In this document: piece after piece, positions 18,102 to 20,423 of the stretch
Position numbering within the stretch: the stretch's first letter is position 1
Layout: each line of letters starts with the position of its first letter
NCBI RefSeq assembly: GCF_021654115.1
Contig: NZ_JAIWJF010000002.1
Span: forward strand, 310,001 to 374,000
DNA length: 64,000 nt
Direction of reading: 5' to 3'
Origin: Furfurilactobacillus milii
GTDB taxonomy: Bacteria; Bacillota; Bacilli; Lactobacillales; Lactobacillaceae
Position numbers and translations under genes: made by a program
Notes under the pieces: generated by a model
What the model saw: only the letters and a program-made list of their open reading frames with translations
The model's database searches: none
Told to the model about the DNA's origin: nothing

Positions 18102-18782
18102 ATGAGTCAGCTAAATATATGGCAACAATTACTGTATTATTTTGAGCATAATGGCTTATATGTTTTGAGTCAGTTTAACCGACACTTCCTTATTTCGATT
18201 TATGGCGTGTTGTTTGCTGCAATCGTTGGTATTCCGATTGGCATCTTGATTGCCCGTAATCGTCATTTGAGTGGCTGGGTAATCGGAATTGCCAATGTTA
18301 TTCAAACGATTCCGTCTCTAGCAATGTTGTCGGTGTTAATGCTTGGCCTTGGTCTTGGCGTGAATACCGTTATCGTGACAGTGTTTCTGTATGCGTTATT
18401 GCCAATTATCAAAAACACGTATACCGGGATGTTAAACGTTAATCCAGATGTTCTGGATGCCGGCAAGGGGATGGGGATGACCCGTCTTGAAGTGCTGCGT
18501 TACATTGAACTGCCGCTTTCGTTGTCTGTTATTATGGCAGGCATTCGAAACGCTTTAGTGCTGGCAATCGGAATCACTGCGATTGGTTCGTTCGTTGGTG
18601 CTGGTGGTCTTGGTGATATCATTATCAGGGGCACGAACGCCACAAATGGTGGTGCAATCATTTTAGCTGGCGCTTTACCGACCGCTTTAATGGCCATTGT
18701 TTCCGACGCAGTGTTGGGTTGGCTACAAAAGCTATTTGATCCTTCGGCACGACGCAATCATGCGCAGGGTGCAGAAGAGTAG
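18102..18782 (+). CDS. opuCD: osmoprotectant ABC transporter permease, second subunit
   Basis: Second permease of the OpuC importer, 226 residues from the ATG that follows GAAGGGGG; the longer frame upstream lies inside opuCC and is not used. Same layout as OpuCB: EAA-loop GMGMTRLEVLRYIELPLSLSVIMAG and AGGLGDIIIRGTNATNGG. About six membrane helices. It closes the opuCABCD operon. The region after it is gene-free and carries the large structured RNA described below. Confidence 0.93.
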   Translation: MSQLNIWQQLLYYFEHNGLYVLSQFNRHFLISIYGVLFAAIVGIPIGILIARNRHLSGWVIGIANVIQTIPSLAMLSVLMLGLGLGVNTVIVTVFLYALLPIIKNTYTGMLNVNPDVLDAGKGMGMTRLEVLRYIELPLSLSVIMAGIRNALVLAIGITAIGSFVGAGGLGDIIIRGTNATNGGAIILAGALPTALMAIVSDAVLGWLQKLFDPSARRNHAQGAEE

Positions 18783-18825
18783 ACAGTATTTGTAACTTCA
18801 ATAACTAGGCGCGCCACTACTTTAA

Positions 18826-19280
18826 TGAGCGTGGATTACGCTTACGGTTGTCAACATTGATACACCCGCCGTGGGACCGGGTCGAGCCCGAAATTCGCGG
18901 TCTTTCACCTCGCCGTAAAGCCTCGTGAAAATCCGAGTCTTCACGACAGTCCGTTGTGTAAATTCGAGAGAAACATTCGAATTAACACAACTTTCACGGC
19001 TCGGTATCAATGTTGACGCCCTCCGGTTAACAAAGTGACAGGTTTGCGTGCAAAATATGTAAATGGAAATTTGTAGAATTTTAACTCTTGTAGTAGTGGA
19101 GCTGACCGGAAACAGAGTTCCGTGTCGGCAACACTTGGCGGCGAGAATTTAACCGCTTAGTGTTGCGGGATGACTTATGAGACGTGGTTTGACGGCTCAT
19201 AATCAAGGGAGAAAACCGCGTTTTGTGCGGGTTGAACCCGGTCCCATGGAACGGCGTTTCCGATTAGCGTAACGGCTGCT
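18826..19280 (+). ncRNA. candidate large structured non-coding RNA with pseudoknot
   Basis: No gene is seen between opuCD and the serine hydrolase gene (633 bases), but the stretch is packed with paired helices. Seen: closing helix TTACGCT (18836-18842) with AGCGTAA (19266-19272); helix A GTCAACATTGATAC (18850-18863) with its exact complement (19004-19017), 14 of 14; helix B 18869-18890 with 19228-19249, 20 of 22 pairs including two G-U; hairpins at 18954-18990 (13 of 14 pairs), 19101-19129, 19128-19166 and 19172-19204. A and B cross, which makes a pseudoknot. Four G-U pairs in the plus-strand reading would be A-C mismatches on the minus strand, so the RNA is most likely plus strand. Size and ornate shape recall ROOL or GOLLD RNAs, but I cannot confirm a match. 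No clear promoter or terminator is visible. Confidence 0.7.
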
Positions 19281-19415
19281 ACATTACTATGATTTAGCTA
19301 CTAGGAAATTCAGGATTTTTAGCTAATGAGGATTGTTATTTAAATTGAGTGCTAGGCGTTGTTGTTCACTGAAGTAGTTGACGACAGCGCCTTTTATTGA
19401 AAAAGGTGACAGTAA

Positions 19416-20423
19416 ATGCGTGATTACAAACAAACGCAACGTGTAATTCAGGACTTGTTGGATGACCAGATTGTACCCGGGGTCAGTTACGCGTTGATCG
19501 ATGGCTCAGAAGTGTACCAAAAGGTGAAGGGTGATGCCCAGTGGTGGCCTGAACATGAACCGTTAAAAACGGGGATGCTGTACGATTTGGCCTCGTTGAC
19601 TAAGGTAGTTGGTACCACGACGGCATTATTACAATTAGTTGAGCAAGGTCAGCTTAGTGTCGATGATAAATTGGCCCAGTTCGTTCCTGGATGGCATGAT
19701 AAACGCATTTCACTACGGGATCTGCTGACGCATACGTCGGCGGTTGCGGGATACATTCCACATCGTAATGAGTTGCCCGCCAATCAGCTTAAACAAGCGT
19801 TATTACAGTTGCCAGTCGGTGACACGTTTGAACAGCGCGACCATTATACCGATATTGGCCTGATTTTTATTGGCTATGTGTTGGAAGCCGTGTATCATCA
19901 ACCAGTGCAACAGATTATTGAGGAACACGTTTTGAAACCGCTGAAAATGGTTGCGGCGACATTTACACCAGATCCGTCAAACAGTGTGCCAACCGAATTG
20001 ACTCAACAAGGTCTGATTCGCGGACGTGTTCATGATCCGAAAGCCGCTATTTTAGGCAAGCATTGCGGCTCTGCTGGGTTGTTTGCGTCATTAGCTGATA
20101 TGACAACTTTTGCACAGTGGTTTTTAAGTGATCGTGACGACGTCTTGGCTGCCAAGACGCGTGACTTGTTGCGGACAGATCAAACACCATCGCACGACTT
20201 GGGCCGTTCATTAGGGTGGAATTTATTAGCGAGTTCGGATAACACACATTTGGTCAGTTTTCACACGGGGTTTACCGGCACCATCATCATTTTGGATCGG
20301 GTTACGAAACAGGGGTTAGTGTTATTGACAAATCGAGTGCATCCGAGCCAAAAAAATCACCGCTTTATTGAGTGGCGACCGTCGTTATACCGAACCTTTT
20401 TGGATGAAGTTGCTGGTGGTTAA
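19416..20423 (+). CDS. beta-lactamase-family serine hydrolase
   Basis: Class C beta-lactamase/penicillin-binding-like serine hydrolase (Pfam Beta-lactamase fold), 335 residues, no signal peptide or membrane anchor, so probably cytoplasmic esterase or peptidase rather than a resistance enzyme. Catalytic S60-L-T-K63 in DLASLTKVVGT, second motif Tyr144 in HYTDIG, third motif HTG at 283-285. LSLRDLLTHTSA-type sequence (ISLRDLLTHTSAVAGY) is characteristic. AAAGGTG precedes the ATG. The gene stands alone between the structured RNA and manA. Substrate is unknown. Confidence 0.85.
   Translation: MRDYKQTQRVIQDLLDDQIVPGVSYALIDGSEVYQKVKGDAQWWPEHEPLKTGMLYDLASLTKVVGTTTALLQLVEQGQLSVDDKLAQFVPGWHDKRISLRDLLTHTSAVAGYIPHRNELPANQLKQALLQLPVGDTFEQRDHYTDIGLIFIGYVLEAVYHQPVQQIIEEHVLKPLKMVAATFTPDPSNSVPTELTQQGLIRGRVHDPKAAILGKHCGSAGLFASLADMTTFAQWFLSDRDDVLAAKTRDLLRTDQTPSHDLGRSLGWNLLASSDNTHLVSFHTGFTGTIIILDRVTKQGLVLLTNRVHPSQKNHRFIEWRPSLYRTFLDEVAGG

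Follow-up and report, generated by a model that had tools for sequence, protein, structure and literature searches.

The window, a stretch of 64,000 nucleotides from Furfurilactobacillus milii, contains a gap of 633 nt between the end of opuCD (position 18782) and the start of a serine hydrolase ORF (position 19416). As an earlier note on this DNA had stated, no convincing ORF was found in this gap. Folded as RNA, the interval 18783-19415 reached -230.1 kcal/mol on the plus strand (z -6.5) and -202.9 kcal/mol on the minus strand (z -9.6), and none of 20 shuffled sequences equalled either value. The long helices announced for 18826-19280 are present, with a fold far beyond that of shuffles on both strands. 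The helix of 14 pairs out of 14 corresponds to GTCAACATTGATAC/GTATCAATGTTGAC, the long hairpins are those labelled P3 below (18953-18991 and 19128-19166), and a further long helix, GCTGACCGGAAAC/GTTTCCGATTAGC, joins 19101-19113 to 19256-19268. The limits also agreed within about 10 nt with those of a repeat element extending from 18836 to approximately 19276-19279. Its organization is as follows.

18836-19279, no strand assigned: whole repeat element, a spacer with one structured module on either side, the two being inverted homologues (full-length copies align over positions 54-494 of the 633-nt gap)
18836-19030, minus strand: module R-left, an RNA fold of about 195 nt with its 5' end near 19030 and its 3' end at 18836 (consensus fold and match to covariance model R1)
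18846-18863, minus strand: P1 of R-left, 3' arm (GTCAACATTGATAC region), partner 19004-19020
18868-18878, minus strand: conserved 3' motif GGTCCCACGGC of R-left, near-invariant in a cross-genus alignment of 41 sequences
18912-18947, minus strand: P4 hairpin of R-left, AAGAC/GGCTT with an A.G mismatch
18953-18991, minus strand: P3 hairpin of R-left, covarying between copies (GTAACC/GTTAC versus GTGTTG/AACAC)
19031-19090, no strand assigned: AT-rich spacer of about 60 nt between the module 5' ends, a possible divergent promoter region (GC content and weak -10-like conservation)
19091-19279, plus strand: module R-right, an RNA fold of about 190 nt and inverted homologue of R-left (consensus fold and R1 match)
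19101-19113, plus strand: P1 of R-right, 5' arm GCTGACCGGAAAC, partner 19256-19268
19128-19166, plus strand: P3 hairpin of R-right
19172-19204, plus strand: P4 hairpin of R-right, GAGAC/GGCTC with an A.G mismatch
19240-19252, plus strand: conserved 3' motif GGTCCCATGGAAC of R-right
19355-19399, plus strand: terminator-like hairpin followed by a T-run (intrinsic type, from sequence and fold), downstream of the element and common to the sister species G002 and G003

The relationship between both halves was apparent at several levels. R1, a covariance model of the module core, matched R-left at 18865-19004 on the minus strand (123 bits) and R-right at 19115-19253 on the plus strand (130 bits). 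Likewise, a profile of the right half recognized, on the opposite strand, left halves belonging to divergent copies. The consensus fold of 161 copies of the left half scored -30.6 on the minus versus -14.5 on the plus strand, with 320 G-U against 63 A-C combinations, and that of 88 copies of the right half scored -65.9 on the plus versus -37.5 on the minus strand (199 G-U, 50 A-C). A cleaner alignment displayed the same strand preference (-149.5 versus -132.6 and -129.2 versus -114.3). Because of this inverted homology and of the folds on opposite strands, the halves were assigned to a single RNA family, here called R, whose two modules read away from the spacer. Each module is closed by a long helix, P1, and further contains the helix P2, two hairpins and a P5 stem. 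The P3 hairpin bears a U.U mismatch and the P4 hairpin a conserved A.G mismatch (GAC/GGC); in P5, many copies display tandem G.A pairs, as judged by eye from the aligned sequences. The 3' motif is GGUCCCAY. The shared core follows the order GGACG, P4 with GAC.GGC, CGAGGUGAAGAC, P5 and GGCUGAACCGGUCCCAC. The spacer stands out by a GC content of about 0.32 (over 19031-19098) versus 0.49 for the element; weak -10-like conservation adjoins both module starts, and as a promoter the spacer scored no higher than shuffled sequence.

This organization modifies the earlier picture of one large structured RNA. The structure itself is borne out by covariation and by the strand-specific G-U preference, whereas the single RNA of about 450 nt has to be replaced by two opposite-strand modules of about 190 nt, repeated more than 100 times. 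The proposed closing helix joining both ends (TTACGCT/AGCGTAA) and the pairing GGGACCGGGT/ACCCGGTCCC are no helices of the conserved RNA fold; they arise from the opposite orientation of two homologous halves. The suggested likeness to ROOL and GOLLD found no echo in Rfam 15, where neither these families nor OLE, HEARO or any other matched the region at the gathering threshold. With E values up to 10, one insignificant match was recorded, far under the family cut-off, and the ROOL model matched under neither setting. Rfam matches across the whole window were limited to tRNAs, and searches with relatives from other genera and families returned nothing besides one tRNA. The evidence that the earlier note had asked for in support of a new class, the lack of an Rfam match together with covarying homologues elsewhere, was obtained.

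Comparison of the 633-nt sequence with its own genome gave 45 blastn matches, about 20 of them full or near-full length (window 18836-19276) and the remainder mainly one half. Accordingly, copy lengths were bimodal, at about 200 and 455 nt. A census with R1, which scored 150 of 510 first-look candidates and thus provides a lower bound, recorded at least 137 modules in the F. milii genome, distributed as 42 adjacent pairs and 53 singles over at least 95 places. All 42 adjacent pairs were divergent. The nearest copies to that of the window displayed 77% identity over the full length and 88% for one half, and since no near-identical copy was present in this genome, the spread seems old. Density was very uneven among contigs of this genome (G000): C26 (140 kb) contained 22 modules and C24 (165 kb) 19, compared to 19 for C11 (581 kb) and 7 for C20 (305 kb). 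At two loci (L026:1626-1813 and L035:2412-2601), more divergent modules occurred in inverted orientation beside ordinary left modules, which indicates at least one further subfamily in this genome.

Beyond F. milii, R1 matched 99 of 398 Lactobacillaceae genomes, belonging to 10 of 40 genera, and gave weak but repeated matches in two other families of Lactobacillales; 399 Bacilli genomes sampled outside this order contained none. Copies were numerous in F. milii and F. rossiae, while Secundilactobacillus odoratitofui and a Lactobacillus MAG displayed one match each. Presence was patchy inside genera. The congener G004 and genome G008, also from a carrier genus, contained no module, and their relatives contained many. 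Plasmid matches were confined to five records, and the two that were examined share one common segment: a single module (L156:4001-4210 and L157:4001-4210) lies close to a qac-like efflux gene on segments that are near-identical between a Pediococcus damnosus plasmid and a Loigolactobacillus backii plasmid. The flanks match F. milii locus L084, which suggests transfer of the entire segment. Plasmid searches by blastn with two relatives gave no match; nor did phage records at blastn sensitivity or viral contigs at the sensitivity of an exact motif.

Covariation was very strong. Among the 41 aligned sequences, which represent several genera, both sides were altered in some sequence for 32 of the 37 pairs, with 368 double-changed cells against 121 in shuffled and 29-74 in slid controls. 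With 81 sequences these values rose to 36 of 37 pairs and 664 cells (156 shuffled, 69-129 slid), in an alignment that was fitted to the structure and is hence biased towards it. Covariation thus strongly supports, from aligned sequences, a structured non-coding RNA family.

The fold was further followed in situ, in 74 groups of orthologous modules, which sister species share at identical insertion sites. Substitutions per site amounted to 0.047 (left) and 0.036 (right) in stems, compared to 0.098 and 0.080 in loops and 0.097 and 0.123 in the adjacent 60-nt flanks; at fixed sites, stems consequently changed at about half the rate of loops. Changes between Watson-Crick and G-U pairs exceeded those between Watson-Crick and A-C (225:131, p 7e-7). 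This excess was also observed at sites without a codirectional gene on the 5' side (96:59, p 0.004) and below 6% divergence (81:46, p 0.002), and it persisted when the structure of the opposite strand was used. RNA-strand folding therefore seems, as far as substitution patterns tell, to be under constraint copy by copy. Templated repair of palindromes should not produce a preference of G-U over A-C. Gene conversion between copies could mimic part of the in-situ signal, including this preference. In one ortholog group (group 0, with G000, G005 and G002), P3 differed blockwise, of type GTGTTG/CAACAC versus GTAACG/GGTTAC, which looks like gene conversion between paralogues.

Several observations connect the repeat to mobile DNA. 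It is short, non-coding, multi-copy and polymorphic for insertion, as expected for a MITE. The copy at the opuCD/serine hydrolase site has orthologs in three sister species (G002, G003 and G005) and is missing in G001 and G004, and orthologous sites could be occupied, empty or left with a partly deleted copy. In some cases the lost segment ran between short direct repeats, e.g. CAGTGA. Genome G374 provided the clearest case, in which near-identical copies of the module pair lie inside a MITE of about 540 bp, bounded by 14-bp terminal inverted repeats (CTAAAGGTTGAAAG) and flanked by 8-bp target duplications (e.g. TTTATAGT and TCTAGGTT). Empty sites and this young MITE, with its module pair and 8-bp duplications, demonstrate a mobile origin. 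The Furfurilactobacillus copies seem old, their empty-site borders are ragged and no outer terminal repeat was found to be shared in their flanks, whereas terminal repeats and duplications are clear in G374. Hairpins or entire modules were deleted at some orthologous sites and in young MITE copies, so that single copies are dispensable. Among the young MITE loci on contig C1 of G374 (L221-L230, L232-L236 and L239), several copies lacked single hairpins.

The mobilising enzyme was sought among three candidates. Y1_Tnp (PF01797) had no match in G000, G002, G003 and G374, all rich in copies; reverse transcriptase (PF00078) had none in G000, G001, G002, G003 and G005; and the TnpB-type domain (PF07282) had none in six genomes of the Furfurilactobacillus group, five of which carry the repeat. 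All three were discarded as current mobilisers, their domains being absent from the window's genome. A SINE- or group-II-like reverse-transcribed element was likewise rejected, given the five genomes without PF00078. An autonomous version, in which divergent modules would enclose a gene, was not retained either, since the interiors checked were empty or contained ordinary genes, e.g. ruvA-like or coding for a LysR-type regulator (named by eye from translations).

Copies were intergenic, with a left end at a median distance of 68-84 nt from the neighbouring gene. Sites between convergent genes were common and divergent sites rare, the same preference as described for pneumococcal repeats (PMC3049150).

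The reading that best accommodates these data, to which we attribute a probability of roughly 0.6 on sequence evidence, is that of a MITE-like interspersed repeat whose R modules act as RNA, with a putative role at 3' boundaries. Its components differ in strength. A repeat of mobile origin with RNA-strand folds is very probable. That the modules function as RNA at each locus is slightly favoured, and the specific role at 3' boundaries, our preferred mechanism, is tentative. The unit would be either a divergent pair of homologous structured modules of about 190 nt or a single module, and copies, once spread, would have settled mainly behind genes. The R strand of each module would then be made as single-stranded RNA, either by transcription running outwards from the spacer or within the 3'-terminal portion of a read-through RNA. 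The core common to the modules may then be active as RNA, and its most likely role would be that of a 3'-boundary element, binding a common factor or blocking exonucleases and read-through. Weighing against this reading are spacer promoter scores at the level of shuffled sequence, the losses of hairpins or entire modules, the module-free genomes G004 and G008, and gene conversion as a possible source of part of the in-situ signal. A bolder formulation, which we consider possible but rather doubtful, is an unnamed, divergently paired multi-copy RNA family, with more than 100 modules per genome in parts of Lactobacillaceae and a common binding factor, acting in trans or cis, i.e. a domesticated mobile RNA forming a genome-wide 3'-boundary or RNA-sequestration system.

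The main rival is a purely selfish MITE of the BOX/RUP type, whose fold served only a formerly active copy or the mobilising enzyme and whose copies are now decaying passengers. Favoured convergent and rare divergent sites, as in pneumococcal repeats (PMC3049150), would be expected for such a family, as would deletions at orthologous sites, hairpin loss in young G374 copies and patchy presence inside genera. Decaying passengers agree less well with stems changing at half the loop rate and with the G-U over A-C preference on the R strand at fixed sites. Nor do they readily explain why the fold persists in a genome where the best other copy is only 77% identical over the full length and 88% for a half, or why plasmids nearly lack the repeat and the phage and virus collections, as far as the searches could detect, contain none. 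We regard this selfish family as a serious but minority explanation.

A fold that matters as DNA is less probable still. An extruded single strand or a cruciform could, for instance, be the substrate of a Y1 enzyme (IS200/IS605, RAYT), as in REP/BIME elements; the strand-specific paired inverted modules do resemble BIMEs, P1 arms are long and perfect, and losses between short direct repeats are palindrome-like. Yet no Y1_Tnp was found in the window's genome, G002, G003 or G374 despite their many copies, and the conserved A.G (P4, P5) and U.U (P3) mismatches, together with the G-U excess over A-C, suit RNA better. A guide or scaffold RNA of an omega-RNA-type nuclease (TnpB/IscB), reading out of the element end, would fit the outward RNA strand and the location of module ends near the element boundary, but is very improbable given the absence of PF07282 from the six Furfurilactobacillus-group genomes, the lack of a HEARO match and the unconserved sequence beyond the 3' end, where no guide-like flank was seen. 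Finally, a single large ornate RNA of ROOL/GOLLD type, evoked by size and helix density, can practically be dismissed, as Rfam gave no match, the halves are inverted homologues folding on opposite strands and modules stand alone at 53 places.

Interspersed folded repeats as such are a known kind, and the R family shares features with several of them. Like BOX, RUP and SPRITE of Streptococcus pneumoniae, which were found confined to few species and read as parasitic (PMC3049150), it is interspersed, intergenic, strongly folded, of mobile origin and enriched between convergent genes. Unlike these repeats as described, it spans about ten genera of Lactobacillaceae and two further families, and its neighbouring modules are always divergent and under strand-specific structural constraint. 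Rfam gave no match to the present repeat. REP/BIME elements of enterobacteria likewise combine inverted homologous structured pairs with single units. REP units are hairpins of about 35 nt, whereas the modules described here are about 190 nt long with several helices, and the window's genome has no Y1 transposase match. ROOL and GOLLD are also highly structured non-coding RNAs of lactobacilli, but the R family differs by its multiple copies, its two opposite-strand modules of about 190 nt and the absence of an Rfam match or of the motif in viral contigs. With classical MITEs, the G374 pair has in common the 14-bp terminal repeats and 8-bp duplications; around the Furfurilactobacillus copies no shared outer terminal repeat was found, and the conserved part is the internal RNA fold. 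No named family corresponding to this repeat was found in the open-access literature. So far as Rfam 15 and this literature tell, the family itself, its cross-genus core, the strictly divergent pairing and the copy-by-copy strand-specific constraint are new.

The presence of at least 137 strongly covarying modules absent from Rfam in one food bacterium implies that annotation misses a large part of the structured DNA between genes in lactobacilli. Should the folds work as RNA, a mobile element would have supplied these genomes with a dispersed layer of regulation; if the family is selfish, it would be a rare case where the RNA fold of each copy can be traced at orthologous sites. With the covariance model, existing transcriptomes can be re-read at once.
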